Source: Thermoanaerobaculia bacterium | GTDB taxonomy: Bacteria; Acidobacteriota; Thermoanaerobaculia; Multivoradales; JAHEKO01 | Assembly (NCBI GenBank): GCA_945787635.1 | Contig: CALZIK010000097.1 | Span: forward strand, 1 to 34,058 | DNA: 34,058 bases | Direction of reading: 5' to 3' | Part shown: positions 19,784 to 33,988 of the stretch, piece after piece | Layout of the letters: every line of letters starts with the position of its first letter | Numbering within the stretch: the stretch's first letter is position 1 | Notes under the pieces: generated by a model | The model's input: the letters and a program-made list of their open reading frames with translations, nothing else | Databases searched by the model: none | Told to the model about the DNA's origin: nothing | Made by a program: the position numbers and the translations under genes

Positions 19784-20163
19784 TGAGCGTCCTCGTACGG
19801 CTAGGCGCCTAGCCAGTCGCGTCTCGTGAGCTTTGCCTTCACTATCCTCTACGAGCCTGAGAGCCCACGGTTCTCAATCGCCACGGAGAAGGGCCATTGC
19901 TCGCCTCGCGGAGCGGCAGAACCTCTGTTTCGGCACGAACATTCGGGCACCTTCTTCTCGAGAGCACTTCGAGCCGGGCCAGTTGCCGACCTGCCTACAC
20001 CTCTACCTGCCTCTACCTGGGGCCCCAAAACAGCACCTCTACCGGCAGGCACCTCTTCGGGCAGCACCTCTACCTGGGGCCAAGGCTCCGTCGCCCCACT
20101 ACCGAATCACCGCCCCAAGCAGGGTGAGAAGGCATGGGAGAGGTCCATCGCCCAAGCCGCGCT
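19784..20163. other. intergenic region dominated by a GGCACCTC-type array
   Basis: The 380 bases separate the multicopper oxidase stop from the DUF4199 start. The half nearest the oxidase is filled with repeat units. The other half has no gene, terminator or promoter I can defend. Short frames here read through the repeats and show repetitive Pro/Thr/Leu strings. Confidence 0.6.
19945..20090 (+). repeat. GCACCTC array with TACCTGG-type tag
   Basis: From about 19998 the units read CACCTCTACCTG, CCTCTACCTGG, GCACCTCTACCGG, GCACCTCTTCGG and GCACCTCTACCTGG, separated by a few bases or by a short GGGCCCC-containing stretch. A weak GGGCACCTTCTTC match at 19945 may be another unit. The tag (TACCTGG/TACCGG) differs from those of all other loci, while the CACCTC core is common. 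There is no intact GGTGGCACCTC head unit here, so this copy may have lost it. Confidence 0.7.
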
Positions 20164-21906
20164 CTAGTCTCCCCCAGGAAGCTCGCACGTCCGCGGCGGG
20201 GCGCTCGCCGCACGCGCATACGGAGGCGGTCCGGTCAGCGGCGCGCCGTGCCTGACCTCGACGTTTTGCATCATCCCGAGGTCCTCGTGCCCGAGGATGT
20301 GACAGTGGAGGACGTAGAGGCCGGCGAAACGTAGGAATCGGGTTCGGAAGGTGATGCTGCCGCCCTCCTCGAGACCGGAATTCTCGGTGCCCTCGACATT
20401 GACCACATCCTGCCAGCGCGGGTTCGCGACGTCGCGGCCGTTCTTCTTGACGACCCAGAAGGGGTTGACGTGAATGTGAAACGGGTGGTCCATGGGCGAT
20501 CGGTTGAAGACCGTCCATTCTTCGACCGCGCCCAGAGACACGAGCTGATCGATCCGGCCCTTGCCGTAGAGCTTGCAGTCGATCATCGGCCGAAAGGGAC
20601 CAAAGAGCACGTCGAAGTAGAGCTCGCGATACCCGGTCAATTCGTCGTCTTGCGGCGGCCGCAGGAACTCGGGATCGCGTGGTGAGGGCTGGGGGAGCCG
20701 GGACGGAAGGAGCATCACGGTCCCACCCGACTTGACGCGGACAATCGCTCGCACCGGGCTCTCCTTGCGGCCGGCGCGGAGGTCGAAGTCGCCGCCTCGG
20801 TCGTGACCGAGATCGAGCAGCACGTACTCGCCCGGCTCGTCGAACCTGACCAATAGGTCGGCCCGATTGCCCGGAGCCAGCAGGACATTGGAGACCTGCC
20901 GGATCTCGTCGAGGTAGATGCCGTCCATAGCGATGTGGTTGAGAGCGACGCAGCCCGGCGCGCCGGGCTGGGCGCAGTCCGCGTACTCGCCGCTCTCGCT
21001 CAAGTGAGCGACGGCCAGATTGAAGTAACCGTCGGCGCTCACCCCCGAATTGACGAAACGCCAGCGGCGGACTTCGCCCTGGGCGATCTCGATCACCGGC
21101 CGAACCTCGCCGTTGACCGTGAAGAGGTGGGTCGCCTCCGTCACCCCGAAGCGGAGCATCTGCTCGGTGAGCGCGAGGTCGGACTCCTTGAGAAGCTCCT
21201 GGAGGATCAAGACCTGGTCTTCGATACCCTCCATTTCCGGAGGCAACGTGTCCGGGTAGTCGTTGACGATGAGCGCACCGGCCATGCCGTTTTCCACCTG
21301 CAGACGAGTCGAGCCGTGCTTGTGAGGATGGTACCAGTGGGTCCCCGGTGGATGCCGGTGCCAGATGTTGAAAAGGTAATCGAACCGACTGAGCGGGCCG
21401 GCCTGCGGCGGAATCTCGAGCAGGACATCGTCGGACGGCGCCGTCGGCGAGATGTGGAGCCCGTGCGTGTGGAGATTCGTGGTGTTCGGGTCATGGAAAC
21501 AGTTGGGCAGCTCTCGGTCGGGGTCGGGAGGGTCGCAGGCGCCGGGGTTGGGATTGGCCGGCAGAGCGTTGACGAGCTCGACTTCGAGCGAGTCGCCGCC
21601 ATCGACCCGCAACTCGGGGCCCGGAATCTGCTGGTTGTAGGAACGGGTGTTGAGAACGAACGGTTCGAGCGGGTTGCCCCGCGCGTCGTTGATCGGGATC
21701 TCGACCCGGCCGGTCTCGATGCGCAGAGTCTCGGGCACCACATGCCTTGCCGGGTCCTCCCTCGTACCAGTCGTGCGAGCCACTTCTTGCTCTCTCTCGG
21801 GCGCTTGCCCGCAACCCACGACGCCGAGCGGCAGTACCGCTCCCGCCGCGAGAGCGGAGCTTCGTACCATGAACTCGCGACGGCTCGGCTTGCTGGACTC
21901 GATCAT
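20164..21906 (-). CDS. Tat-exported multicopper oxidase
   Basis: This 580-residue protein has AGGAGG eight bases before the ATG at 21906. The N-terminus carries the twin-arginine motif SRREFM (Arg9-Arg10), a weak hydrophobic stretch and VVGC (Cys32), so a Tat-exported lipoprotein is likely. All four copper motifs are intact: HTHGLH (146-151), HWYHPHKHG (190-198), HPFHIH (474-479) and HCHILGHEDLGMM (534-546). The last includes the type-1 Cys535. The family couples one-electron substrate oxidation to reduction of oxygen to water. The insert EYADCAQPGAPGC may form a disulfide. Whether the substrate is a metal ion, phenol or cuprous copper cannot be told; there is no Met-rich loop. The repeat array follows its stop. 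Confidence 0.95.
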   Translation of the reverse strand: MIESSKPSRREFMVRSSALAAGAVLPLGVVGCGQAPEREQEVARTTGTREDPARHVVPETLRIETGRVEIPINDARGNPLEPFVLNTRSYNQQIPGPELRVDGGDSLEVELVNALPANPNPGACDPPDPDRELPNCFHDPNTTNLHTHGLHISPTAPSDDVLLEIPPQAGPLSRFDYLFNIWHRHPPGTHWYHPHKHGSTRLQVENGMAGALIVNDYPDTLPPEMEGIEDQVLILQELLKESDLALTEQMLRFGVTEATHLFTVNGEVRPVIEIAQGEVRRWRFVNSGVSADGYFNLAVAHLSESGEYADCAQPGAPGCVALNHIAMDGIYLDEIRQVSNVLLAPGNRADLLVRFDEPGEYVLLDLGHDRGGDFDLRAGRKESPVRAIVRVKSGGTVMLLPSRLPQPSPRDPEFLRPPQDDELTGYRELYFDVLFGPFRPMIDCKLYGKGRIDQLVSLGAVEEWTVFNRSPMDHPFHIHVNPFWVVKKNGRDVANPRWQDVVNVEGTENSGLEEGGSITFRTRFLRFAGLYVLHCHILGHEDLGMMQNVEVRHGAPLTGPPPYARAASAPPRTCELPGGD

Positions 21907-22092
21907 CTGCGCGGCCTCCTCGAGGCGCTCGCGACGTTGCGGTTCTCACGCGCTTCAGTTCTCATCGTCGCCCTCCCTGTGTGTCTCTCCGACGGAGCGC
22001 TGAGCCCCGGATCGGTCCTGCTATCGGATTCGAATTGGCCGGACACTAGCACAAGGTCTGAGCGGGCGCCGCTGCCTCCCGGGCCAAAGAGA

Positions 22093-23322
22093 CTATCTGC
22101 GGAACGAATAGACGACGCCGGTCGACACTCCATCACGGCGTGCTTCCACGGTGGCGCCCACGAGAATCGAGGTGCTGGTGACGGCGACACTGTCACCGAA
22201 CGAGAAATTCGCCTCGAGCGGCTGGAGTTTCGCCGTCTCGATCCAATCGCCGTCTTGGCGCTCGAAAACGTAAGCCGAGCCGGAGCTCCCGCGCGAGAAC
22301 GGATCCTGCCCGCCGACAATCAGCGTCCTTCCCTTCTTGGCCAGGGCTCGTCCAAAATTGTTGACTCCCGGAAAGACGCTTCGGTCGCTCGGACGCAGCC
22401 TTGCAACACGACGTCCCTGGCGGTCGAAGACGGCCACCGAGTCGCTCGACGACGGTTGCCCCACACCGACGAAGATCTGGCCCCCACCGATCAGAGTCGT
22501 TGCGCCGAAACGCTCGACGCGGTCGAACCTCGGCTCGAGCATCCGGGAGAGCCGCACCCACCCGTCTGCGCCGAACTGAAACGCACTCACTACGTTCTGC
22601 GCCACCAGTTGATCGGCGAGGGTCACGAGCGAACGAGTAACCAAAAAGGGTCCGCGCAGTGAAAGTCCGATACCGAATCCCGCTGGGGTAAACGGGTCGG
22701 GCTCGTCCTCCCTGAGCGTCGACTCGTGCTTCCACTCATCCTCGCGGCGAAAGACGTAGACGGCGCCATTCCTGACCCGGTTCTCGTCCCTCGGTCCCGA
22801 CGAGGCGACAGCTATTCTGTCTCGGCTGACTGCCACAGCGCCAGCGAACTTCTTGACCTTCGCTTCCGGCGCAATGAGCTTGGCGACTTCCACCCATGAA
22901 CTCCCGACCCTCTCGTACACGTAGACGGCACCCTTTTCGACCCCATCGACCCTAGCCTTCGGCGCGCTGATCGCGATCGTGCTTCTGGCCACCGCCACCG
23001 CCCGGCCGAACTCCGCTCCTTTTGTCGGCACCGCCTCTCTCAGCCGATCTATCTCTACCCACTCACCCTGAATCCGGCGGAAGATGTAAGCCGAGCCTGA
23101 CCGAAGAGCATCTTCGTCGTCGCCAGGCGATCCGACGACCAGCCACCGGCCATCGGCAGAAAGACTGGCCCCGAAGTTGGCACCCTGGGTTGCTCGAGCC
23201 GAACTGAATCGACTCTCGAGCCGAATCTCGGCATGTCCGCCCACGGCGCCCAGAAGCACAGCCCAAAACGCGATCGCGCTACCAAGACGAAGCGACCACG
23301 TGCTGCTCAGATCCGCCTTCAT
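22093..23322 (-). CDS. exported FG-GAP repeat beta-propeller protein
   Basis: This 409-residue protein starts at the ATG at 23322; the upstream open frame to 23478 merely reads through the repeat array. The signal peptide is residues 1-30 (LRLGSAIAFWAVLLGAVGGHAE). Repeating blocks follow the FG-GAP pattern: GANFGASLSADGRWLVVGSPGDDED...GSAYIFRR, GAEFGRAVAVARSTIAISAPKA...GAVYVYERV, FAGAVAVSRDRIAVASSG...GAVYVFRRED, and further weaker blades to GVVYSFRR at the end. The expected fold is a seven-bladed integrin-alpha-like propeller with calcium loops in the DxDxD-type segments. No enzymatic site is seen. It lies head to head with the RAYT gene, with repeat elements between. Confidence 0.88.
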   Translation of the reverse strand: MKADLSSTWSLRLGSAIAFWAVLLGAVGGHAEIRLESRFSSARATQGANFGASLSADGRWLVVGSPGDDEDALRSGSAYIFRRIQGEWVEIDRLREAVPTKGAEFGRAVAVARSTIAISAPKARVDGVEKGAVYVYERVGSSWVEVAKLIAPEAKVKKFAGAVAVSRDRIAVASSGPRDENRVRNGAVYVFRREDEWKHESTLREDEPDPFTPAGFGIGLSLRGPFLVTRSLVTLADQLVAQNVVSAFQFGADGWVRLSRMLEPRFDRVERFGATTLIGGGQIFVGVGQPSSSDSVAVFDRQGRRVARLRPSDRSVFPGVNNFGRALAKKGRTLIVGGQDPFSRGSSGSAYVFERQDGDWIETAKLQPLEANFSFGDSVAVTSTSILVGATVEARRDGVSTGVVYSFRR

Positions 23323-23346
23323 TTCGAGGAACCTTTCCTGCACGGT

Positions 23347-23443
23347 GGAGCGGAGAAGAGGGTGGCACCTCTTCGGCCAGAGCCGGAGAAGAGGGTGGCA
23401 CCTCTTCCTCCCAGCACCTCTTCCTCCCACCTCTTCCTCCTGG
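23347..23443 (+). repeat. GGTGGCACCTC array with TTCCTCC tag, beside the RAYT gene
   Basis: Two full head units (23350-23376 and 23383-23411) share GGAGAAGAGGGTGGCACCTCTTC. The head can fold as GAAGAGG and CCTCTTC around a GTGGCA loop. The second head is followed by the tag TCCTCC and two shortened copies, GCACCTCTTCCTCC and CACCTCTTCCTCC, ending at 23443. The array sits 25 bases upstream of the FG-GAP gene's ATG. The remaining 23444-23671 holds one inverted copy and no gene of its own. Confidence 0.85.
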
Positions 23444-23610
23444 CTAAGAAACGCCGGAGTTCTATTCGGCTCGGCCACTCCTCAGGCCACCTAACGAGTT
23501 CCAGCCTGACCGGCACTGCCGGCTCTGCTGATGAGAGTCCTTCTGTTGAGGCCACCACTGAAACAGAGTCTACACTCGGCCCGGAGCACCGGAGCCGATG
23601 TCCGTGGTCG

Positions 23611-23641
23611 GAGGGAAAGAGGTGCCACTCTTTTCCGCAAG
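23611..23641 (-). repeat. inverted single copy of the GGTGGCACCTC element in front of the RAYT gene
   Basis: On the minus strand this reads CGGAAAAGAGTGGCACCTCTTT, with a seven- to eight-base inverted-repeat shape and one mismatch to the GGTGGCACC core. It has opposite orientation to the array at 23347 and ends 31 bases before the transposase ATG. The pair of opposed copies on the same side of the transposase resembles the REP arrangements seen around RAYT genes. Confidence 0.75.
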
Positions 23642-23671
23642 AAGACCCTCCTCCTTCGCGTCTTCTCTTGC

Positions 23672-24568
23672 ATGGCAAGGCGATTGCGCTTCATTCCAGA
23701 GGGAGGTGCCCTGGTCGAGGTCACCTGTCGAACAATCCACGGCCGCTTCCTCCTCAAACCCTCACGCCGCCTCAACCGGCTGATCCTCGGCGTCCTCGGC
23801 CGAGCCCAGCGTAAGCACGAGTTCCCCGTCATCAGCTACGTCTTCCTGTCAAACCACTACCACCTGCTCCTCTGGGCGGCAAACGCCCACAAGCTTGCCT
23901 CCTTCATGAACTTCTTCAATGCGAACCTCGCCAAAGAAGCCGGCAGACTTGCCAACTGGCGCGAGAAGTTCTGGAGCCGCAGATACCAGGCCATCGTCGT
24001 GAGCGACGAGCCCTCCGCTCAGATCAGACGACTCCACTACCTTCTCTCACACGGAGTCAAAGAGGGCTTTGTACGACGCCCTTCCGACTGGCCCGGCGTT
24101 CACGCCGTCCGCAACCACCTCGAAGCCAAACCGCAGCACGGAGTCTGGGTCAACCGCACCAAGGCCTACGCCGCTCGCATGCGCAGTGAGAAGCTCTCGA
24201 AAGACGACCTCGAGTCGACGGAAACCGTCACCCTCTCTCCCCTGCCCTGCTGGGCCCACCTCGACGAGGCTACCTACTGCCAGCGCGTCACTGAGCTCGT
24301 TGAGGTTATCAAGGACGCCGGCCAGGCAAACGATGCCGCCGTTGCCCTGCCGCATTCATCGCACGAGCACCCTCTCCATTCCAAGCGTTCTCCCGCCCCC
24401 CACTTCCACTGCGCCTCCAAGCGAGTTCGCCGTGAACTCTTCGAGGCCTACTGCTGGTTCGTAACGGCCTATCGAGACGCGACCGCCCGCCTGAGTCGAG
24501 GCGATCCCTCACCTGACTTCCCAGAAGGCTCCTTCCCGCCCTCTCTTCCCTACGTCGCACACGCCTGA
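23672..24568 (+). CDS. REP-associated tyrosine transposase (RAYT, Y1/HUH)
   Basis: This 298-residue protein starts at ATG 23672; the open frame back to 23531 crosses a repeat element. The Y1 domain shows RRLRFIPEGGALVEVTCRTIHGRF, then SYVFLSNHYHLLL with the HUH pair His62-Tyr63-His64. FWSRRYQAIVVSDE follows. RRLHYLLSHGVKEGFVRR is the helix expected to carry the catalytic tyrosine, most likely Tyr123. A C-terminal extension of about 150 residues contains a His/Ser-rich linker. RAYTs cleave and join single-stranded DNA at REP elements; they are single-copy and lack IS ends. All catalytic residues seem intact. It is flanked by copies of the CACCTC elements on both sides, which makes it the likely cognate enzyme. 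Confidence 0.9.
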   Translation: MARRLRFIPEGGALVEVTCRTIHGRFLLKPSRRLNRLILGVLGRAQRKHEFPVISYVFLSNHYHLLLWAANAHKLASFMNFFNANLAKEAGRLANWREKFWSRRYQAIVVSDEPSAQIRRLHYLLSHGVKEGFVRRPSDWPGVHAVRNHLEAKPQHGVWVNRTKAYAARMRSEKLSKDDLESTETVTLSPLPCWAHLDEATYCQRVTELVEVIKDAGQANDAAVALPHSSHEHPLHSKRSPAPHFHCASKRVRRELFEAYCWFVTAYRDATARLSRGDPSPDFPEGSFPPSLPYVAHA

Positions 24569-24726
24569 CGACGGCAAGAGCTGTCCTGCCGGCCAGGGAA
24601 TCAAGAAAATCCTGGGCAAAAACGAGGCAAGTCGCCGATTCGCTATGGGAATCTTGGCTTGGGCAGCCTAATTTCGCTTTTCGCCAGTGACTCGCTGGCT
24701 GGCTGAGCGACGAAGTTGCGTCCGTC

Positions 24727-24787
24727 TTCAAGAAAAGGGTGGCACCTCAGGTCAGCAGCACCTCAGGTCAGCACCTCAGGTCAGGAG
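24727..24787 (+). repeat. GGTGGCACCTC array with AGGTCAG tag
   Basis: A head unit CAAGAAAAGGGTGGCACCTC at 24729-24748 is followed by the tag AGGTCAG, then GCACCTCAGGTCAG and GCACCTCAGGTCAG (the first after CA). The head is nearly identical to those at 27631, 27670 and 27713, but the tag is different. The array lies between the RAYT stop and the convergent stop of the PQQ-type gene, 24 bases from the latter. Confidence 0.88.
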
Positions 24788-24810
24788 GCTGGTGGCCGCT
24801 CTGTCCGCGC

Positions 24811-26649
24811 TCAGCCGCTCGCCGGAAGCCGGAACGCGGCCATCTCCTGGTCATTGCGCACCAGGAGCAGATCGTCGACCAGCACCGGGTGGTTCCAGGT
24901 CTTGCCTTCGATCGCCGGGAAGCGCGCCAGCTCGTTGAATTTGTCGGGCGCCGCGGAGACCAGCGCGAGCTCACCCTTCTCCGACAAGACCAGCAACAGG
25001 TCCTGGTCCGGCAACAGGACCAGCTGGCCCTGCCCGTAGCGCCCGCCCTTCCACACCCGCGCGCCGTCTTCGAGGTTGATCGACGCCAGGCGGCCGCCGT
25101 CGAAGCCGTAGGCGTGACCCTCGTGAACCACGAAATCGTTGAAGTAGGGCTTCAAGCCGGTCGACGTCCAGCGTTCCTCGACCGTCCATTGCCCGGAGCC
25201 GCGCGCGACCGCGATGCGCCGCAAACCCACACTCTCGTTGGCACTGATCAAGAGATCGCCTTCTTCGGTGAGGGCCGGCTGGACGATCGGGTAGCCCTTC
25301 CATTCGTGTTCCCAGAGCACCGTGCCGTCGGCCGGCGCCACGCTGACCGCGCCGACCGAGCCCATCTGCACGACTTGCGCGACGCCGCCGATCGTCGCGA
25401 GATGGGGTGAGCTGTAGCCGTCGCCGCCGGCGGGTCCGTGCCAGCTCGGTTTTCCCGAAGACAGGTCGTAGGCGGCGAGCTTGCCGGCGGCGGCAACGAT
25501 GACGCGCTCACCGATCACGAGCGGCGAGCTCGAAAAGCCCCAGTAGGGAACCTCGACGTCGGTATCGGCAGCCACGTTGCGCGACCACAAGACCGCACCG
25601 CTTTTCGCGTCGAGCGCATTCAGGATCCCGGTCGCGCCGAAGGCGTAGAGGCGGCCGCCCGCTAGGCTCGGGGTTCCGCGCGGACCGGGTCCGCCCTGGG
25701 ACTCCCAGAAGCGGGCTTCGTCCCGGTGCCACCACACAGGCTCACCGGTGGTGGCGTCATAGCACGCGACGATCTCCTCTTCGCCGCGTTGCTCCTGGGT
25801 ATAGAGGCGGTTGCCGTCAACTGCAAAGGATGACCAGCCGGGACCGATCGGGCGGCTCCAAAGCTCTACCGGCGGCGAGGCGGACCAGTCGGTTGCGATG
25901 CGCGCGCCGTGCGCGACTCCGTCCCGGTCCGCGCCGCGAAAGCCGGGCCAGTCGGCGGTCATGACCACGGGCTCGCGAGGTACGGCGCTCTCGGCGGGCT
26001 CGGGGAGACTCTTCCCAACGTCTTTCGGATCCGCAGCGCTCTCGGTCTTCGCCGCTTCTGGAGGCTCTTCCGTCACTGATGAGCGGAACGGCGCGGGCGC
26101 GGCCGGCGGCTCATCCCCACCCTGCGCCAGCAGGCGCTCTTCCGCGGTCTGCGACCACCTCCAGGCGAATTGCGTGCCCGTGCCCATCGTGCCGTCCGAT
26201 CGAACGAGCGCAAAGCCTGCGCAGACGAGCAGGATCGTCGCCACCATGGTGACCAGGCGCGTCGTGTCGGAGAGCCGGCGGGTGACCACAGCCCAGGCGA
26301 CGAAGGCCATGCCCAGGACGGGCAGGGCATAGAAGAGAAAGAGCAGGCCCATTCCACCCTTGGCAACGGAAACGTGGAGAATCTTAGGTGTCGCGACCAA
26401 CGCCAGGGCGGTCAGAGCAACGGCGAGCAGGCGTTCGAGCCAGCGTGCTCGGCTGAAGAACAGCCACCAGAGCATCACCAGAAGACCCCCGACGGCGCCG
26501 CCCAGAGCACCGGTCATTCCCGCCTGGTTGCCCGGTACGAGGATCGGGACAATGAACCAGACCAGAAACACGAGCCCAGCGATCACCAGGCCCGGCCACA
26601 AGCGCAGCGGCTTCCTTGGATTTGGCTCGTCGGTTCGCGAGTTCGTCAT
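24811..26649 (-). CDS. membrane-anchored PQQ-type beta-propeller protein
   Basis: This 612-residue protein has AAGGGGG seven bases before the ATG at 26649. The N-terminal 165 residues hold five hydrophobic helices (LVIAGLVFLVWFIVPILV, ALGGAVGGLLVMLWWLFF, LAVALTALALVAT, LLFLFYALPVLGMAFVAW, LVTMVATILLVCAGFAL). A Pro/Ala/Glu-rich linker runs to about 235. The rest is a PQQ-like propeller: DWPGFRGADRDGV, IVACYDATTGEPVWWH, LNALDAKSGAVLWSR, LAAYDLSSGKPSWHG, VSVAPADGTVLWEHEWKG, INLEDGARVWKGG. Each blade ends in a D..G..xW turn. Such proteins often resemble BamB or quinoprotein dehydrogenases but the residues that bind PQQ are not evident, so a non-catalytic binding role is as likely. The propeller should face the periplasm. 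Confidence 0.9.
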   Translation of the reverse strand: MTNSRTDEPNPRKPLRLWPGLVIAGLVFLVWFIVPILVPGNQAGMTGALGGAVGGLLVMLWWLFFSRARWLERLLAVALTALALVATPKILHVSVAKGGMGLLFLFYALPVLGMAFVAWAVVTRRLSDTTRLVTMVATILLVCAGFALVRSDGTMGTGTQFAWRWSQTAEERLLAQGGDEPPAAPAPFRSSVTEEPPEAAKTESAADPKDVGKSLPEPAESAVPREPVVMTADWPGFRGADRDGVAHGARIATDWSASPPVELWSRPIGPGWSSFAVDGNRLYTQEQRGEEEIVACYDATTGEPVWWHRDEARFWESQGGPGPRGTPSLAGGRLYAFGATGILNALDAKSGAVLWSRNVAADTDVEVPYWGFSSSPLVIGERVIVAAAGKLAAYDLSSGKPSWHGPAGGDGYSSPHLATIGGVAQVVQMGSVGAVSVAPADGTVLWEHEWKGYPIVQPALTEEGDLLISANESVGLRRIAVARGSGQWTVEERWTSTGLKPYFNDFVVHEGHAYGFDGGRLASINLEDGARVWKGGRYGQGQLVLLPDQDLLLVLSEKGELALVSAAPDKFNELARFPAIEGKTWNHPVLVDDLLLVRNDQEMAAFRLPASG

Positions 26650-26824
26650 CTGCAGACCCCCTTCTCGAGTCTTCTTGGAGATCGACGTCTTGTCGAGGCC
26701 TAGCTCATCCTACGCGCTCCGGGGCCGGCGAGTTTCGTTTCTGACAAACCTGCCGGCACGCCCCGTCATGAATGGCACCTCCTGCCGCCCCCTCATGACC
26801 CGTCTATCGCGCCGCCTGCTTCTT

Positions 26825-26872
26825 CACAAGAGGGTGGCACCTCTCGTGGGCGCACCTCTCGTGGGTCACCGC
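26825..26872 (+). repeat. GGTGGCACCTC array with TCGTGGG tag
   Basis: The head CACAAGAGGGTGGCACCTC is followed by TCGTGGG, then GCACCTCTCGTGGG and a truncated TCACC. The array ends about ten bases from the stop of the 26880-27416 gene. An extra duplication GCTATTGGGCTATTGGG at 26871-26887 covers that stop codon. Confidence 0.85.
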
Positions 26873-26879
26873 TATTGGG

Positions 26880-27416
26880 CTATTGGGGGGTTCCTGTTCT
26901 TGGCAAACACCGCGGTGCGCTGTCGTAGCCATCGAAAAACTCGAAGTTGCCGGGGAGCAGATCCCCACCCTTGCGGATTTCGATCCAGGTCTCGGCGGAG
27001 CTGCCAGCCGCCATTCGATGGCTGATCGGAGGGAAGCGTTTGAAGAATCCGGCTATCTGCCCGAGTTCCGAGTCGATCACTTCCTCTGCCTTGATCTTCT
27101 TTCGAATGCTCTCGATGAGGTCTCCCTGGGGGTCCAAGTATCTCCTTTCGACCCGGATCTGGAAGGGAAACGGAGTCTGGCCACGGTTGAAAAAGCCTAC
27201 GAAGTAGCGCGCCTCGATCGTGGTCGGTATCGTAAAAAAATCCCGGTGAACAAGGATGTTCTGCCTCCGCGGTATGGTCATATCGAGTTGGAATTCGGCT
27301 TGCCTGAACTTCACGACGCCACTTTGCCGGTCGGAGCACAACCTGATGTCCGACCACGCCGGGACGGAGAGGCCGATGCCTCCAAGAACAAAACACAGAA
27401 TCCAAAGCCTCTTCAT
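26880..27416 (-). CDS. exported protein of unknown function
   Basis: This 178-residue protein starts at the ATG at 27416, with AAGGGGGG seven bases upstream; the longer frame to 27530 has no ribosome site. The signal peptide is residues 1-21 (KRLWILCFVLGGIGLSVPAWSD). The mature part begins IRLCSDRQSGVVKF and is a beta-rich domain with YFVGFFNRGQTPFPFQIRVERRYLDPQGDLIES, then a helix-containing segment. NRGQTPFPFQIRVERRYLDP is reminiscent of an immunoglobulin-like strand pair. I do not recognise a family. Its stop codon lies in a local duplication next to a repeat array. Upstream 100 bases hold no clear promoter. Confidence 0.75.
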   Translation of the reverse strand: MKRLWILCFVLGGIGLSVPAWSDIRLCSDRQSGVVKFRQAEFQLDMTIPRRQNILVHRDFFTIPTTIEARYFVGFFNRGQTPFPFQIRVERRYLDPQGDLIESIRKKIKAEEVIDSELGQIAGFFKRFPPISHRMAAGSSAETWIEIRKGGDLLPGNFEFFDGYDSAPRCLPRTGTPQ

Positions 27417-27627
27417 TGGCGACCCCCCTTTTTGCTGACTCGGTTTCTCGGATTCGTCGACGCCGCCGTCACATGAGGATTCCCTTCCGGAGGGCAGCCT
27501 TCGCAGGCGCCGCGCTCGCCTCGGGAACAATACAACGGGGTTCGTAAGTAACTTAACAAACTACGTACCCGCAGTCAATTGCGTGTCGCGCCTCCCCAAC
27601 AGAGCTGTTGCCTCGAGGGGGACGGGT

Positions 27628-27815
27628 GCTCAAGAAAAGGGTGGCACCTCCAGTCGGGGGGGCTCTGCTCAAGAAAAGGGTGGCACCTCCAGTCGGCAGT
27701 CGGGGGGGGGCTCAAGAAAAGGGTGGCACCTCCAGTCGGGCAGCACCTCCAGTCGGGCACCTCCAGTCGGCACCTCCAGTCGGCAGCACCTTTAGTGGTC
27801 ACCTCACCGGCAACG
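27628..27815 (+). repeat. longest GGTGGCACCTC array, CAGTCGG tag
   Basis: Three full heads (AAGAAAAGGGTGGCACCTC at 27632, 27671 and 27714) each carry the tag CAGTCGG. The third is followed by shortened copies: CAGCACCTCCAGTCGG, GCACCTCCAGTCGG and CACCTCCAGTCGG, then diverged CAGCACCTTTAGTGG and TCACCTCACCGG. Heads one and two are separated from their successors by G-runs of seven and nine bases. The array lies 19 bases from the stop of the BNR gene. The rest of 27417-27833 has an AT-rich stretch near 27540-27570 but no gene. Confidence 0.93.
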
Positions 27816-27833
27816 CGTGAGAACGCCGACGAT

Positions 27834-29117
27834 TCAGCGCAGTTTCATGGGCCAGCGCCGGTATCGCAACTTCCGAGGATTCTCTTGAAAGTCCGTGCCG
27901 CCGCCATAGACGATATGGGCGGTACCGGAGCACCGGCCGAAGCCATCCGGAACCGCGGCAAGACCAACGGCGAGGTTCCGGTCGCCTTCGGTGTGCTCTC
28001 GCAGTTGACTTCGTCGCCAGGTCCTTCCTTGATCGGTGCTCCGTGCGACCCAGAGGTTTCCGAAGTCCTGCCAGGCCGCATGGATGGTGTCGCCTGCCTT
28101 GGCTACCGCCGGGTACCAGGCGGTTCCCGGGCGCCGGTTGATCCGCGACTTCTCGGACCACACACCGTCTCTGTGCTTTTGGTAGTACAGATCGTGAGAG
28201 ACGTAGCCGTACTTGAAGGCCGTACCATGCCCCCACACCATCCCGAACGAGTCCCCGGACGGCAGGACCGCCACCGGCCAGACGAGATCACCGTCGTGGT
28301 ACTCGCCCGGCTTGGGCGTCTCTGCCCTCAAGCGCCCCGGGCTCTTGATCCAAGAGGCGCCATCGACACTGGTCCGGTGGAAGATGTTCTTTCTTCTCTC
28401 AGGAAATTTCGCAAACGAGATGTGGACCGGCGGCGCCAAGCCGGACGTGGGATCAAGCCCCAGCGCCGGCCATGACCCCTCACGAGCCGCGATCGGTCCG
28501 GGCCGATCACGAGTCCAGGTCGCGCCCTGATCGTGGCTCGAGGCGATGACGATTCGACTCCGACCGGCCGAGTGCGCTCTCCAGGCGACGTGGACATGCC
28601 GGCCACGCGACGCGATGAGCACCGGGCCGAACCGTCCCACCTGACTCGCCCGCGAGATCTTTCTCTTCTCGCTCCACATTTCGCCTCCGTCCCGGCTGTT
28701 CAGGTAGTGGGTTCTGGTTTTGTATGACCCGAGCAACCGTTCCTCCAGCCACGCGACATGAACGTCGTCACCCGAAGCTGCGATGGCCACGTCGTTGGGA
28801 ACCTCGCCGTAGCGTTCTGCTTGGTACTTGTCAGCACGTAGTTGAATTTCTACGAGCGTCTCGGCGGCACTCCAGGTGTCGCCGCAGTCTTCGCTCCGCG
28901 TGTACCGCAGCAACTGCTTGTCGTCGTGACGCGAAAACCACACGACGTGCACGGCGTTCCCCTCGGCCGCGACCTGCGCTGGGCGCTCGGCGATGTACCG
29001 AAGGATGTGTGGCGGCTCGCCCAGCGTCTGAGCCGGAGTCCAGGCCGAGAAACACGGTGGACTGGCCGCAAATGCCGCCAGGGTCAGAATCCAGACGCCG
29101 AGACATCGGTGCCTCAT
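27834..29117 (-). CDS. exported BNR/sialidase-type beta-propeller protein
   Basis: This 427-residue protein starts at the ATG at 29117 with AGGAGG about seven bases upstream; an earlier in-frame start at 29144 has no ribosome site. The signal peptide is residues 1-25 (LGVWILTLAAFAASPPCFSA). Five Asp-box motifs (SxDxGxTW) mark the blades: SEDCGDTW, SRDGGEMW, SHDQGATW, SVDGASW and STDQGRTW. Alternating strands such as VHVVWFSRHDD and VHVAWLEERL fit a six-bladed propeller. The catalytic Arg triad, Tyr and Glu of real sialidases cannot be confirmed, so a glycan-binding or non-catalytic role is possible. Expected location is the periplasm or outside. Its 3' end is beside the CAGTCGG array. Confidence 0.88.
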   Translation of the reverse strand: MRHRCLGVWILTLAAFAASPPCFSAWTPAQTLGEPPHILRYIAERPAQVAAEGNAVHVVWFSRHDDKQLLRYTRSEDCGDTWSAAETLVEIQLRADKYQAERYGEVPNDVAIAASGDDVHVAWLEERLLGSYKTRTHYLNSRDGGEMWSEKRKISRASQVGRFGPVLIASRGRHVHVAWRAHSAGRSRIVIASSHDQGATWTRDRPGPIAAREGSWPALGLDPTSGLAPPVHISFAKFPERRKNIFHRTSVDGASWIKSPGRLRAETPKPGEYHDGDLVWPVAVLPSGDSFGMVWGHGTAFKYGYVSHDLYYQKHRDGVWSEKSRINRRPGTAWYPAVAKAGDTIHAAWQDFGNLWVARSTDQGRTWRRSQLREHTEGDRNLAVGLAAVPDGFGRCSGTAHIVYGGGTDFQENPRKLRYRRWPMKLR

Positions 29118-29379
29118 GGGACCCTCCTGCGGAAAACCTAACACGACTCCCTTGCACTCGAGAACGGGGACACCACCTGGTCGGCGAGGATTCAGTTCGG
29201 TTCCGTGGGATGATGCGCGGAGATGACAGCCGGTTTCGAGTTCGTGTCATCCAGCACAGCACCTGGAATGAGGAGCAAACAACGCCGGAAGCCCTAGCGT
29301 AGGCTTCTGGAGTGACCGGATTCGCACTCCCTGTCACCGCTGGCGTCTCAGAAACGAGGTAAGAGAGCACGATGTCGTC
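29118..29379. other. divergent intergenic region
   Basis: The 262 bases lie between the BNR gene and the DinB gene, which point away from each other. A short hairpin GAAGCC/GGCTTC lies at 29288-29307, and a seven-base inverted repeat GATGACA/TGTCATC spans 29222-29251. Neither is strong enough to name as an operator. Promoters in both directions are expected here but I cannot place them. Confidence 0.4.
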
Positions 29380-29916
29380 ATGAACGGAGCAGCCTGGCTG
29401 GACGAGGTTCTCGCTCAATACCGATACCGGAAGAACCAGTGTGAGCGAGCGGTCGCTCAGGTGACCGAAGAACAGCTCTTCGAGACCGTCGGTGAGATCC
29501 CGCTATGCCTCGCAGCCCAGATGAAGCACATCGGCGGCAATCACCGCTCGCGCTGGCGGGACTTCTTGACCTCCGACGGCGAGAAGCCCGACCGCAATCG
29601 CGACGATGAGTTCGTTGTCGACGGCGAGACCCCGGATTCGATTCGAGCCCTTTGGAACGAGGGCTGGCGGATCACCGTCGAGGCCCTCGAGAGCCTCACG
29701 GCCCAGGATCTCGAAAAAACCGTGACCATCCGCGGCGAGCCGCACACCGTGGTCCGGGCCGTCCAGTGTAATCTGACACACCTCAGCTACCACACCGGCC
29801 AAATCGTCTCACTGGCGCGACACTTCGCCGGCGAGAGCTGGCAAACCCTCAGTATCGCGCCCGGGGAATCGGAGACCTACAACCGGCGAATGCGGGGCAA
29901 ATGGGGCAGTTGGTAA
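29380..29916 (+). CDS. DinB-like/DUF1572 four-helix protein
   Basis: This 178-residue protein matches the DinB-like putative metalloenzyme fold. It shows an N-terminal helix, IPLCLAAQMKHIGGNHRSRWRDFL with the first His pair, and LTHLSYHTGQIVSLARHF carrying the second His group. NHRSRWRD and HxxYHxGQ are the signatures of the DUF1572 branch. Such proteins bind a divalent metal by three His residues. Some transfer thiols; this branch has no proven reaction. No signal peptide; location should be cytoplasmic. The ribosome site before the ATG is poor. The next gene starts 18 bases after its stop, so the plus-strand run 29380-31588 may be an operon. Confidence 0.9.
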   Translation: MNGAAWLDEVLAQYRYRKNQCERAVAQVTEEQLFETVGEIPLCLAAQMKHIGGNHRSRWRDFLTSDGEKPDRNRDDEFVVDGETPDSIRALWNEGWRITVEALESLTAQDLEKTVTIRGEPHTVVRAVQCNLTHLSYHTGQIVSLARHFAGESWQTLSIAPGESETYNRRMRGKWGSW

Positions 29917-29934
29917 GGGAAAGGTACCTGGCAG

Positions 29935-30330
29935 ATGGCCGGCAGTGGCAAAGGCGCGCACTTTCGCATCATCGAGAGCCTCGGGCTCGACGCAGGCCGC
30001 TCGCTGCCGGCGTGGAAGAGCGAAGGCTGGGCTGACTACGAAGCCAGTCTGGCGGGAATCCGCCGCGATCCCGACTACGACCTGGCGCGGCGGGTCGACC
30101 TCCTGGACGACACCAGCTACTGGCGGAATCCACGGCTCAGGGCTCGCCGTTGCTACAGATGGCAGCTCCTGGTCGAATATCTCGTTGAGGTTCGAAGCTA
30201 CCGGTTCGAAGACCTGAGTAGGCCCTCGGTCACCGAATCCGAAACCTGGGCCCAGATGGTTGCCTGGCGTCGGGAAAACTCAAGCTCGACCGATAGACTG
30301 CTAGACGATCTCGCGCTCACGATTCAATGA
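29935..30330 (+). CDS. hypothetical protein in the DinB-like operon
   Basis: This 131-residue frame has AAGGGAAAGG upstream and lies 18 bases after the DinB-like stop. It is rich in Arg, Asp, Trp and Tyr (SEGWADYEASLAGIRRDPDYDLARRVDLLDDTSYWRNPRLRARR) and mainly helical. No membrane segment, signal or metal motif is seen, and I recognise no family. Its TGA overlaps the next gene's ATG (ATGA at 30327-30330). Position and overlap, rather than any domain, support it as a real gene. Confidence 0.65.
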   Translation: MAGSGKGAHFRIIESLGLDAGRSLPAWKSEGWADYEASLAGIRRDPDYDLARRVDLLDDTSYWRNPRLRARRCYRWQLLVEYLVEVRSYRFEDLSRPSVTESETWAQMVAWRRENSSSTDRLLDDLALTIQ

Positions 30331-30788
30331 GAACAGTTCACACTCTGGTCGGAATTCTCAGCGGCTGTCTGACTGTGGCGGCCTGCGCAATGAACGTTCC
30401 ATCGGAGTCGCCACCCGCCGCTGCGGCCATCCGTGCGGTGTTGGAAGAGGACAGCAAGCTGGGAGGCGTCCGGAATCACGCACCGGAGTCGATGCCGCTG
30501 GCAGAGGCGGTCCGAGCCTATGTGAGAAGCCTCGATGCAATCGACTTCGGAAACTGTCCTCCGGAATTCACAAGTGCTTTCAAGCGCCACCGAGATGCCT
30601 GGCATGAGTCAATCCGGTACCTCGAAGAGCACGACGAGATCCGCGGCGAGATGCACGACTTGTTCGATCGGATCCGTGGAGTCAGCGCAGACGCTCGAAC
30701 ACGGATCGAGGCCGTTGAGAAGAGCATCTGGGGCACGTGGGCCGAGGTCGAAGCGGCGGCCGAGCGACACGGCGGCGGCCCGAACTAG
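30327..30788 (+). CDS. small lipoprotein, unknown function
   Basis: This 153-residue protein is translationally coupled to its upstream neighbour by ATGA. Residues 1-20 form a lipoprotein signal (TLVGILSGCLTVAAC, lipid Cys20). The mature part is alpha-helical: a linker with Pro and Ala, then EAVRAYVRSLDAIDFGNCPPEFTSAFKRHRDAWHES and a final helix IEAVEKSIWGTWAEVEAAAERHG. The FGNCPPEFTxAFxxHxxAW stretch is well formed and would be the best search query. Function unknown. Expected anchored to a periplasmic membrane face. Confidence 0.75.
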   Translation: MRTVHTLVGILSGCLTVAACAMNVPSESPPAAAAIRAVLEEDSKLGGVRNHAPESMPLAEAVRAYVRSLDAIDFGNCPPEFTSAFKRHRDAWHESIRYLEEHDEIRGEMHDLFDRIRGVSADARTRIEAVEKSIWGTWAEVEAAAERHGGGPN

Positions 30789-30802
30789 AAAGAAGCACGA
30801 TT

Positions 30803-31588
30803 GTGTCCCCTCGACTTCGAAACTCGGGAGGCCCTGCGACCGTACCGTTGAGTGATGGCGACGCGCACGAGGCGAGCAAGAGAAATCAGTTGAAGAGAAT
30901 ACTGCTCGTCTGCGCCGTCGTCGTCGTAGCAGCCGTTGCACTTGCGCACTGGTACTTCAGTGATCGGGGCCGCTTCACCACCGAGCCCGAGTACACGGGC
31001 CTTGCCCGCACCGTTTCAGGCAATGACCTCGTCTCGGATCATGACCCGGCCGCCATCCTGCGTTTCGATCCGGCCTATCATTATATCGGTGGTCAGAAGT
31101 TCATTCTCTACGGCGTCGCCGACACCGAGCAGCATTTCTTTGTCGAGACCTCCGCTGACGACAAGCTCCAGAGTGTCTATTGGGTGCAGTATGAGGCCTA
31201 CCTGCCGAACAAGCGCTACACCTACGACTACGACGACTCACCTCTGCGCCTGGCGCTCGGGAGCTACGAGTTCTTTACCGACACGGAAGCGTTTTCCTTT
31301 GACCCCAACAAGAAGCGGCGGCGTGGCACGGACGGCGCAATGGCGCGACAATTTTTGGCCAGCAAAGGCTACTCCTATCCAAGCGAGGTCCTCTACGCGC
31401 GCCTGGTGTACCTGACCGATGAAGCGCGCAACAAGGAGCTCATGATCATCTTCATGGACGATCTCGCTCGCTACGGCGCCATCGCCGCAGAGCTCCAGGA
31501 AGACGGCGGCAACGCCGAACGCTGGCCCGAGTTCGAACAGGCGCATCTCGAGCGGATCGAGAACACGCTCGCGGTTCTTGCCCGTTAG
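30803..31588 (+). CDS. single-pass membrane protein, unknown function
   Basis: This protein of about 262 residues, taking the GTG at 30803 as start, follows the lipoprotein stop by 14 bases. Other starts are possible (a TTG at 30893 would put the membrane segment at the N-terminus). One hydrophobic helix (RILLVCAVVVVAAVALAHWYFS) anchors a globular domain. That domain has FDPAYHYIGGQKFILYGVADTEQHFFVE, VYWVQYEAYLPNKRYTYDYDDS and EARNKELMIIFMDDLARYGA. No catalytic motif is evident and no family is recognised, although the aromatic-rich beta region is distinctive. The N-terminal position suggests a periplasmic domain. Last gene of the 29380-31588 run. Confidence 0.72.
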   Translation: MSPRLRNSGGPATVPLSDGDAHEASKRNQLKRILLVCAVVVVAAVALAHWYFSDRGRFTTEPEYTGLARTVSGNDLVSDHDPAAILRFDPAYHYIGGQKFILYGVADTEQHFFVETSADDKLQSVYWVQYEAYLPNKRYTYDYDDSPLRLALGSYEFFTDTEAFSFDPNKKRRRGTDGAMARQFLASKGYSYPSEVLYARLVYLTDEARNKELMIIFMDDLARYGAIAAELQEDGGNAERWPEFEQAHLERIENTLAVLAR

Positions 31589-31600
31589 GAGCCTGTCCCC

Positions 31601-33901
31601 TTACTGGACTTCCGTCGTCACCGGAGTCAGCCGTACCGGCACGTGCTTGTGGTACGGCGTCTTGGCGAGTGGGTCGCAGTGGTCCGACGAGGTCAGGAAG
31701 TTGATGCGGGGACCGGTTGCGCGATCATCGCTCGCGTCCCCCGAGTCGCTCTGCCCGTAGCCGTGCGGCAGGGACAGGCAGCCCGGGCGGACCGTGTCGT
31801 CGGGCTGGATCACGACCTCGACCGAGCCCGCGCGCGACTCACAGACCGCGAGCTGACCAGTGGCGAGGCCGAGCCGCTCGGCGTCTTGGGGGTGGATACG
31901 CAGAGCGCCTTCGCGGTCCTGCCGCCGCCAGTCGGGATCCCGGTAGATCTGATTGGCGTTGTAGGACCGGCGCTCGCCGGAGGCCAGGATGAAGGGGTAC
32001 CGAGTGTCGACGTGAGGATCGGCGACCTCGCCTTCGAGCGCGCGAAGCTCGTCGAGCATCTCCGGGATCGCCAGCGCGATCCGGCCGTCTGCGTGCCGAA
32101 CGAGCTGCCAGCCTTCCTCGTAGGTGTGGGTACTGATCGGCACCGCGGTGTCGCTGTCGAGGATGGCTCGAAACAAGGCCTCGCCGTTTCGGTGCCCGGC
32201 GCGGCGCACCGGCTCGGCGTGGCGGCGGGCGTAGAACTGGCACGAGCCCCAGAGGACCGCCGCGCTCGCCGCGCCGTCCGGGAGAGCCCGGCCCAGCGAG
32301 GAATAAAGCACCAGGCTGGCGACCTTTTTCAAGGCCGGCCTGAGAGCGAGCGTCGCGACAAAGGCCTTCGGGAAGAGCCCCAGGGCCGGCATGCGTCGAT
32401 CGAGCCGGGCGATCGCTTCGAGCACAGGAAATCGCGTCGGCAGCTCGCCCATCGCCACCAGCAACCGACGGTAGATCTCGGGCTCGGGCAGCGTGTCGCC
32501 ACCTGGCTCGACGATCGGCCGGCGAAGATGAAAGTAGTTGGTCGGAAAGTCGAGGGTGAAGAACGTCGCTTCCCACTTCTCGTACTGTGACGGCGCCGGC
32601 AGAACGTAGTCGGCAAGGCGCACCGTTTCGGTGTCGGCGACGTCGATCGCAACCACCAGCTCGAGCTTCTCGAACGCGCGCTGATACGCGTTGGTGTCGG
32701 CCGCCGTCTGCATCGGATTCGAGCTGTCGACGATCAACGCGCGCACGCGCTCCGGATGATCGGTGTCGATTTCAGCGGGCAAGATGTTGGGCGGAAAGAA
32801 CTTCGAGATCTCACTCATGCCGGTCACGCGCGTGGTGGCGCCGCCGGCCCCGGGCTCACGCGAATGCCCGATCAGGGGTACCAGCTGGGTGTGCAGATTG
32901 TTGCCGCCCTCGTGACCGAAGTTGCCGGTCACCAGGCTGAGGAGCTTCTCGAGGTAGGTGTTGAGGGTCGAGTGCAGGCTGTGCTCGAGCCCGAGGTCGT
33001 GCCGGGTACATGCGGTCCGGGCGCCGGCGAATCCTCTCGCCACGCGGCGGAGCTCTTCGGCCTCGACACCCGAGCGCTCGGCGTAGTCCTCGACCGGCAC
33101 GCCTCTGAGGATCTCAAGCAGCTCCGCCGAGCCGCGGGTGCGCCGGTCCAGAAAGTCCCGATCCTCCAGACCGTCCTGCACGATGATCCCGAGCAGGGCC
33201 GCCAGCAGAAACGCGTCGGTGCCCGGCTTGACCGCGAGGTGGACGTCGGCGAACTCCGCTGTCTTCGTGCGCCGCGGGTCGATCACGACCAGAGTCCGGT
33301 TCGGGTCCTTGCCGATCTCCCGGATCACCTGGCGCGCGCGCGGAATGCCATGCGACTGCCATGGATTGGCGCCGATGATGATCACGTAGTCGCTTTGTTC
33401 GATGCCCTCGGTGACGTGGCAGGTCTGCCGGCCGAAGAGCCTGCCGTTGACCCAGAAGTCGCCGGTCTTTTCCTGCGCCAGCGAGTTGTAGATGTAGGGC
33501 GTGCCGAGCGCCGCGCGAAAGGGAACGGCGTAGGCGCCGCCCAGGTGATTGCCCTGGCCACCGCCGCCGTAATAGGCGATGGCGTGGCCGCCGTGGTCCG
33601 CTCGGATGTTTGCGAGCTTCGCGGCCACCTCGCGAATCGCGGTATCCCAGTCGATTCTCTCGAAGCCGCCGTCGGGCGTGCGGCGCAGCGGATGGGTCAG
33701 GCGTCCCGCGTGGTTCTGATAGTAGTCGAGCCGGGAAGCCTTCTGACAGAGATAGCCCATCGACGAGGGGTGCTCGCGATCACCGCGAATGCGCTTGAAG
33801 CGTCCATCTTCGACCTGAATCTCGATGCCGCAGTTCAGGCTGCACAGGTTGCAGGCGGTGGCCCGCCACTCGGCGTCGGGGTGGCTGATCGGCTCGGCCA
33901 T
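31601..33901 (-). CDS. molybdopterin-dependent oxidoreductase (FdhF/BisC-type)
   Basis: This 766-residue protein has a [4Fe-4S] motif at the N-terminus (Cys17, Cys20, Cys24, Cys52 in CNLCSLNCG and GYLCQKA), diagnostic of the catalytic subunit of formate-dehydrogenase/DMSO-reductase family enzymes. Later motifs are VIIIGANPWQSHG, VVIDPRRTKTAE, VTGNFGHEGGNNLH and LIVDSSNPMQT. The C-terminal bis-MGD domain includes FILASGERRSYNANQIYRD and LSLPHGYG. No Tat signal is seen, so it should be cytoplasmic. No electron-transfer or membrane subunit is adjacent. The usual Cys, selenocysteine or Ser metal ligand is not obvious in NSLAQEKTGDFWVNGRLFG. The substrate is unknown. The ribosome site is weak. Confidence 0.93.
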   Translation of the reverse strand: MAEPISHPDAEWRATACNLCSLNCGIEIQVEDGRFKRIRGDREHPSSMGYLCQKASRLDYYQNHAGRLTHPLRRTPDGGFERIDWDTAIREVAAKLANIRADHGGHAIAYYGGGGQGNHLGGAYAVPFRAALGTPYIYNSLAQEKTGDFWVNGRLFGRQTCHVTEGIEQSDYVIIIGANPWQSHGIPRARQVIREIGKDPNRTLVVIDPRRTKTAEFADVHLAVKPGTDAFLLAALLGIIVQDGLEDRDFLDRRTRGSAELLEILRGVPVEDYAERSGVEAEELRRVARGFAGARTACTRHDLGLEHSLHSTLNTYLEKLLSLVTGNFGHEGGNNLHTQLVPLIGHSREPGAGGATTRVTGMSEISKFFPPNILPAEIDTDHPERVRALIVDSSNPMQTAADTNAYQRAFEKLELVVAIDVADTETVRLADYVLPAPSQYEKWEATFFTLDFPTNYFHLRRPIVEPGGDTLPEPEIYRRLLVAMGELPTRFPVLEAIARLDRRMPALGLFPKAFVATLALRPALKKVASLVLYSSLGRALPDGAASAAVLWGSCQFYARRHAEPVRRAGHRNGEALFRAILDSDTAVPISTHTYEEGWQLVRHADGRIALAIPEMLDELRALEGEVADPHVDTRYPFILASGERRSYNANQIYRDPDWRRQDREGALRIHPQDAERLGLATGQLAVCESRAGSVEVVIQPDDTVRPGCLSLPHGYGQSDSGDASDDRATGPRINFLTSSDHCDPLAKTPYHKHVPVRLTPVTTEVQ

Positions 33902-33941
33902 GACTGGCGAGCTTAGCGTAGCCGGCGGTTTCGGCAGCCAT

Positions 33942-33988
33942 CCAAGAAGAGGCCGGCACCTCTAGCCGGCGCCCTCTAGCTTGGGGTC
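33942..33988 (+). repeat. GGCACCTC element with TAGCCGG-type tag
   Basis: The string CAAGAAGAGGCCGGCACCTC is followed by TAGCCGG and a shortened, diverged copy CGCCCTCTAGCTTGGGG. Lead and core match the other heads except that GGTGGCACC is GCCGGCACC. It lies between the divergent oxidoreductase and VOC genes, 41 bases upstream of the former. Confidence 0.75.

Follow-up and report, generated by a model that had tools for sequence, protein, structure and literature searches.

The route by which mobile IS200-like ancestors gave rise to REP elements and domesticated RAYTs has yet to be established. Classical RAYTs offer no view of the step from an insertion sequence to a REPtron, since they are said to have lost the ability to move. 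Bertels and Rainey (2011; PMC3116915), in the accessible text, regard RAYTs as single-copy genes that seem unable to mobilize themselves, and according to the accessible part of Corneloup (2021; PMC8266576), TnpA_REP cleaves between C and T. Tandem REP clusters that include flanking sequence are also on record in the excerpts of this literature. TIRtrons/TIRYT, as far as they are set out in the available portion of Rocco et al. (2013; PMC3733652), consist of a RAYT-like gene with inverted repeats (TIRs) at both ends and include one group from Acidobacteria; some TIRs form dispersed families, and some share a GGGGWSAS motif. In the available sections of Quentin et al. (2018; PMC6006769), the motif of TnpA-Y1 class 2 is Y---NP, and its subclass 2.3 comprises proteins of about 325 aa with NHYH and YVDLNP, which are present in several similar copies per genome and for which no REP was found; class 3 proteins (178 aa, with Y----Q) are accompanied by atypical repeats in Acidobacteria and are seen there as an intermediate between IS and REPtron.

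The window analyzed here is the whole 34,058-nucleotide stretch of contig C97, one of the 203 contigs of a 4.36-Mb genome, and its features are collected in Table 1. We consider it likely that the RAYT gene in the window and the outward-facing heads flanking it make up a single IS-like transposable unit, about 1.1 kb long (1.0-1.4 kb in relatives), and that the encoded enzyme is a RAYT-fold Y1 HUH transposase. A sequence-only reading of this DNA had described a forward array upstream of the gene, an inverted copy about 31 bases before the ATG and an array after the stop, and this layout was found as described: the extended sequence of the inverted head stops about 31 bases 5' of the ATG, the forward array has its full heads at 23361 and 23394 with truncated copies behind them, and the array beyond the stop begins at 24722. 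The observation is thus confirmed, and its interpretation is partly supported. With at most one mismatch, the core GGTGGCACCTC occurs nine times in the window (0.77 expected, and nine reached in 0 of 100 shuffles), one of these matches, at 723, being probably due to chance; in the whole genome there are 19 GGTGGCACCTC sites and none of the reversed pattern, and some of the 19, isolated without the rest of the head, may be chance occurrences. The elements listed in the window (20033-33970) all lie on the plus strand except the RAYT's own upstream head.

Table 1. Coordinates of the RAYT gene, heads and arrays in the window
Feature	Sequence	Position	Strand	Basis or remark
RAYT/TnpA-Y1 gene, 298 aa, HYH + Y123, conserved C-terminal part		23672..24568	+	Pfam, NCBIfam, fold
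Upstream head, inverted, outward-facing, left end of unit	..GGAAAAGAGTGGCACCTC; TTTCCCTCC	23611..23641	-	centred 23619-23629
Downstream head, right end of unit	..GTCTTCAAGAAAAGGGTGGCACCTC	24717..24748	+	homology with C20 derivative
Tag, three copies	AGGTCA(G), spacers GCAGCACCTC and GCACCTC	24749..24784	+	
Forward array	full heads 23351-23374 and 23384-23407, then two truncated CACCTC+TTCCTCC copies	23351..23440	+	
Solo element	head with tag TCGTGGG and a single truncated copy	26817..26868	+	
Array	three full heads, tag CAGTCGG, at least three truncated copies	27624..27790	+	
Degenerate solo head		33936..33970	+	
Degenerate array	truncated copies without full head	20033..20080	+	absent from the sequence-only reading

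The relatives of the RAYT protein align from the ATG at 23672 (the mechanical open reading frame starts at 23531), and the product contains H62-Y-H64 and Y123, the HUH histidines and candidate tyrosine that had been picked out from the open reading frame earlier. Pfam Y1_Tnp matched this protein at 27.1-27.5 bits (cut-off 23), and NCBIfam REP_Tyr_transpos matched it at about 47 bits (47.1-47.6), below the cut-off of 80; the remaining 80 proteins of alignment A1 probably also lie below this 80-bit cut-off (best E 2.8e-17). The named relatives in a protein search with the window RAYT were Acidobacteriota MAGs, and relatives are mostly 300-320 aa long. The HUH motif and the single catalytic tyrosine are well conserved, with H62, H64 and Y123 each retained in 106 of 107 relatives; in alignment A1, which contains 81 of the 107 proteins, these residues are invariant partly by choice, because L145 and L196, each without a catalytic residue, were excluded. 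The position Y+4 is occupied by Q in 59, H in 39, N in 6 and A in 3 of the 107 relatives (H in the window), the residue after it is G in 101, and the consensus of the tyrosine helix is Y-L-x-[QH]-G-x-K-E-x-L-V. About 150 conserved residues (WPG, LPCW, FPxGxFPP) follow C-terminal to the Y1 domain. When an AlphaFold2 model built from 81 relatives (pLDDT 93.7) was compared with solved structures, the predicted fold was nearest to 4er8, an E. coli-type TnpA_REP (rank 1; Z 15.4, rmsd 2.9, 157 aligned residues), and the transposases of IS608 and ISDra2 came next for the model (Z 9.6-8.5); in a profile search, ISDra2 TnpA ranked first (8e-8). The dN/dS values were 0.07-0.21 in 14 RAYT pairs, indicating that selection has maintained protein function in the copies. 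Set against the classes of Quentin et al. (2018; PMC6006769) as given in the available sections, the family has Y---[QH] and mostly 300-320 aa where class 3 has Y----Q and about 178 aa, lacks the YVDLNP of subclass 2.3 and has flanking repeats, and its tyrosine-helix motif matches none in the motif table of that paper.

No other recombinase family was matched by 19 further window ORFs, a subset of those present, that were scanned with Pfam, in agreement with the earlier statement that the RAYT is the only recombinase in the window. The accompanying statement that the RAYT is single-copy held for the full-length gene, of which the genome has one, but remnants of the 5' end of the gene are present on contigs C20 and C30, and contig C112 has a second Y1 gene (L250:185-658, minus strand), which encodes 157 aa with an ordinary Y-VNNPV RAYT motif. 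Since this gene is present in the same genome, its product or another transposase could in principle move the heads; we regard this as highly improbable, because the heads flank the genes of the RAYT clade and match them gene by gene.

The association between the enzyme and the element was analyzed with a RAYT collection of 114 rows representing 111 distinct places, all within the same class as the window; the duplicates L130, L178 and L181 are present in the position and flank-match counts and were removed from the identity, guide, folding and within-genome analyses. At E <= 1e-5, 77 of the 148 genomes of the class contained the RAYT family; 45 of them, all from one order, had a strong match (best E below 1e-50). 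In a sample of the phylum (396 genomes), 10 genomes had the clade at E <= 1e-30, and these too belong to that order. Around the 114 rows, TGGCACCT pointed outward in 44 cases versus 5 inward within 0-200 bp upstream of the RAYT start, and in 37 versus 0 within 200-300 bp downstream of the RAYT end, with 0-3 occurrences per 100 bp beyond 500 bp from the gene. Arrays, defined by the pattern TGGCACCT N(3-14) GCACCT with the reversed pattern as control, numbered 434 versus 56 for the control in the 45 clade genomes, 11 versus 23 in 27 order-mates without the clade, and 58 versus 120 in the other 76 genomes of the class (Mann-Whitney p 3e-11 for the 45 clade genomes against the 27 order-mates). This comparison across 148 genomes was the check that the sequence-only reading had proposed for a RAYT with cognate elements, and the arrays do track the clade. 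With no motif presumed, the upstream and downstream flanks of the same gene matched each other in inverted orientation with a score of 26.4, compared to 21.0 for mismatched flanks and 22.4 in direct orientation (n=98). Within one genome, the match to a RAYT's own flank (20.44) exceeded that to the flanks of other RAYTs (18.12; n=63, p 0.0056), and the match across loci increased with RAYT protein identity. The head types differ by RAYT lineage (GGGTGGCACCT, CGGCTGGCACCT, CGAAACGWGTGTCAYCT, GGTGCNNNGCACC, CCGAAAAGGGTGAGG and others), and the fixed GGTGGCACCTC core assumed earlier is not supported.

The numbers of RAYT genes and elements are not one to one. For instance, G021 combines 57 arrays with a single RAYT; in G054-G056, by contrast, 12-16 or more RAYTs are accompanied by only 2-3 array matches, partly because the heads of these genomes differ. 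Array matches in the absence of a strong RAYT of the clade were found in G039 and G047 (3 each), G110 (8, control 0), G416 (7, control 0) and G463 (34, control 0), and a few further genomes of the class had 3-6 matches with a control of similar size. Twelve of these exceptional places were inspected, seven in G110 and five in G463 (two of them overlapping). An element-rich genome without the clade would have spoken against the pairing, and G463, which has more matches than any other genome of the phylum sample without the clade, was the candidate for such a case; the five places inspected there proved to be microsatellites of the (TGGCACCTY)n type. Many 9-bp tandem repeats (TGGCACCTY) are spread across contigs of this genome (L260, L266, L275, L280, L281). 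In G110, three of the seven inspected places are copies of one dispersed repeat with a fixed CCGCC and belong to a different family of repeat. That repeat (CAAACAATGTCAARAATGGCACCTCCGCCGCACCT; L258, L270, L276), with its fixed tag, occurs in a genome from another family of the class without a strong clade RAYT. With these few exceptions the distribution of arrays and the matching of flanks support the conclusion, drawn at the level of sequence, that the enzyme and the element belong together.

In the relatives, the whole unit has several copies in one genome. We found 36 within-genome RAYT pairs in 12 genomes, with 75-93% identity over 850 bp or more (897-1426 bp), and in 35 of the 36 there was no homology past the unit. 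Upstream homology often stops at the head (..GGAAATCGGGTGGCACCT in G035, ..TCGGGTGGCACC in G023, ..CTGGCACCTC in G029), and homology between unit copies frequently ends at ..GGCACC(T). The downstream spacers often diverge although the gene and the heads are alike, so that in many pairs a sharp boundary can be given for the upstream end alone. In G056, three copies with 92% identity over 1.27 kb have both ends defined and unrelated flanks; the ends of this unit look like direct rather than inverted repeats (CCAATATTCGGCTGCC / TAATTGGCTGCC), which counts against the proposed transposable unit. The genome of the window itself contains, on C20, a 194-bp internally deleted derivative of the unit, in which the inverted head and the first RAYT codons (94.6% identity over 93 bp, the homology beginning at 23619 in the window) are followed by the deletion and then by the downstream head (93.8% over 32 bp); on either side the homology runs only as far as the head core, with different bases outside it. 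A 23-codon remnant of the RAYT 5' end on C30 (L002, G000:C30:59604-59738), beside an outward head with a tag array, is a second decayed derivative in this genome.

The search for empty sites gave less clear results. G034, of the same genus as G035, is collinear with it on both sides of a G035 unit and has 79 bp in place of 3,065 bp; the longer stretch contains the unit, more heads and about 1.4 kb extra, and therefore represents a lineage-specific insertion or loss and not a clean empty site. Comparison of G056:C539 with G053-G055, which are collinear only in pieces, yielded no clean empty site, and none was obtained for the window copy, because its PQQ-type flank gene has paralogues and its FG-GAP gene was unmatched in the fetched flanks of relatives. 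A classical REPtron would explain the locus by a domesticated RAYT that does not move itself and by REPs beside it that are mobilized in trans, with the many RAYT copies of the relatives attributed to segmental duplication or transfer. The one full-length RAYT copy in the genome of the window, and the description of RAYTs as single-copy and immobile in the accessible text of Bertels and Rainey (2011; PMC3116915) and of the 2021 Genetics paper, agree with such an explanation, which is nevertheless improbable in view of the 35 pairs out of 36 that lack flank homology and end at heads, and of the deleted derivative with both ends on C20. From the sequences of these copies it can be stated that the RAYT units multiply as a whole, with the heads as unit ends and unrelated flanks around the copies. 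The sequence-only reading, which saw simply the known REPtron arrangement, was therefore too narrow in this respect. Lone heads are scattered in genomes where the RAYT clade is present. The solo heads of G021 (L197-L211) seem to be longer on the 5' side (about 45 nt, ..GTAA..CTG..AAACGACTTGCGAAGA..), and thus the mobile solo unit may exceed the head.

The tags that follow the heads were compared with the conserved part of the element. Because one set of 93 arrays had been chosen by identical 5-nt tags, tag identity was judged on arrays picked regardless of tags: the 5 nt after CACCT were identical between the first and second copy in 19/32, 23/33 and 30/45 arrays of three slightly overlapping sets, when shuffling expects about 0.7-1.0. 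In 40 heads of G021, the information content was 2.0 bits to the end of TGGCACCT, where the pattern was forced; of the ten preceding places, which were unforced or partly forced, most had 1.0-1.7 bits, and the value fell to 0.5 bits or lower directly after TGGCACCT, with a few places at 0.6. Tag positions 3-6 in this genome have a G-rich bias of about 0.6 bits each, for which we have no explanation. Since the G021 head is conserved to CACCT and the information drops immediately afterwards, the tag is local DNA and not cargo. A tag inside the mobile unit was ruled out for G021 by this drop and also for the C20 derivative. The sequences place the tags outside the mobile unit, as local flanking DNA.

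In 99 of 132 pairs of consecutive array copies, 1 or 2 bases before CACCT were shared; after CACCT the shared stretch was 5-10 nt in 114 of 132, mostly 7-8, with a floor of 5 set by the selection for identical 5-nt tags. Therefore, the re-copied module consists of the 3' part of the head and a short piece of flank. The commonest array periods were 12-15 bp. At the unit ends, the tag recurred after the last full head in 29 of 93 cases, compared with 82 of 1110 random positions, and therefore most unit ends have no array by that measure. The arrays can also shrink to the tag alone, as indicated by L284:9251-9400, in which a G035 head precedes three copies of an 8-nt tag (CCATCTGC) that lack the CACCT part. 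The hairpins proposed earlier found no support in general: with DNA parameters, 94 heads folded no better than shuffled DNA (mean z 0.06 to -0.07 for 27-37 nt), and the mean z was near 0 for 27-, 37- and 57-nt head pieces with the strands tried. Single head copies, such as the one at 23384, can pair GAAGAGG with CCTCTTC. The bases before CACCT were GTGG in 43 of 93 arrays and CTGG in 29, and they lie within the core and not at a hairpin foot (GT[AG]G foot check). Guide pairing between the tag and the 5' part of the head was rejected as well, no excess being found (94 heads, 93 arrays), where shuffled sequences did as well or p was about 0.17.

For the unit as a transposon, we propose that the enzyme would nick single-stranded head DNA between CACC and T, become linked to the 5' end and join the unit or the head to new targets, in which case the bases after CACC would be target DNA, that is, the tag. 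The base after TGGCACC at unit ends was T in 70 of 94, which would fit the C-T cleavage of TnpA_REP; both catalysis at this position and the single-strand intermediates are inferred from such sequence features. More tentatively, re-nicking at the same site after insertion, or polymerase slippage there, might re-copy (G)GCACCT with 7-8 nt of flank in tandem and so give rise to the tag arrays. It is quite possible, if short of probable, that the arrays owe both their origin and their persistence to ordinary slippage of replication at a short repeat, with no part played by the enzyme. In favour of slippage are the small size and sharp limits of the re-copied module, the absence of the 5' half of the head from truncated copies, and the tandem REP clusters with flanks already described in the accessible literature. 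Against it, arrays do not exceed the control in genomes without the RAYT clade, and independent insertions in G035 (89% identity) already carry different tags, two of three upstream ends having repeats; both observations would also fit slippage that follows the heads. We regard as rather doubtful the stronger proposal that this Y1 lineage, besides being a self-mobile IS, produces REPs, and that its transposase generates the locus-specific arrays, repeatedly re-cutting and re-joining after each insertion the 3' part of its end with 7-8 nt of the adjacent host DNA. If it were true, every insertion could leave its own tag repeat, and the lineage would represent a still active stage between IS200/IS605 and domesticated REPtrons.

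Compared with the TnpA_REP/RAYT REPtrons (4er8), the family of the window has the same HUH-Y1 fold, cognate repeats that bracket the gene and dispersed solo copies, but it differs in having Y---[QH]G instead of Y---NP, a conserved C-terminal part of ~150 aa, a multi-copy mobile unit, no stable hairpin, and locus tags. With IS200/IS605 (IS608, ISDra2) it is expected to share the Y1 chemistry, and it has the IS-like multi-copy behaviour; the Q at Y+4 is present in 59 of 107 relatives (H in 39 and in the window). Its ends are mostly inverted repeats without demonstrable subterminal hairpins when the terminal heads are folded, its protein is longer, and solo ends are scattered. TIRtrons are nearest by layout, as they also have a RAYT-like gene bracketed by inverted repeats; judged from the available part of their description (Rocco et al. 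2013; PMC3733652), the ends read here are GGNTGGCACC types and not GGGGWSAS, and unit copying and tag arrays are absent from that part. A literature text search with GGTGGCACCT returned, among the papers listed, human or cloning work by title, and no description of this element was found in the literature searched on RAYT/REP or IS200/HUH tandem repeats in Acidobacteria. Because REPtron-like features (the RAYT fold, cognate ends and solo ends) are combined with an IS-like one (the unit multiplies), the system is best classed as a variant of the RAYT/TnpA-Y1 kind that behaves like an IS and produces REPs, and not as a new kind. It offers a RAYT-fold enzyme that is still multiplying as a unit, with head types matched per lineage, several of them in one genome, and with solo ends scattered. 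These natural pairs of enzyme and end make the step from IS to REPtron testable, and the arrays, which preserve flanking bases of each insertion, may help to trace where the enzyme cuts.

About 120 bp at 23485-23604, between the forward array and the RAYT, align with dispersed repeats on C50 and C42 of the same genome, and repeats of this type are also found in relatives, where three lie about 1.5 kb apart on G038:C198. Rfam gave no match in the window or in these repeats, whose form, CTAACG...GTTAGGCG, we take to resemble that of integron attC sites; the copy in the window lacks the right end, at the place where the RAYT unit begins.
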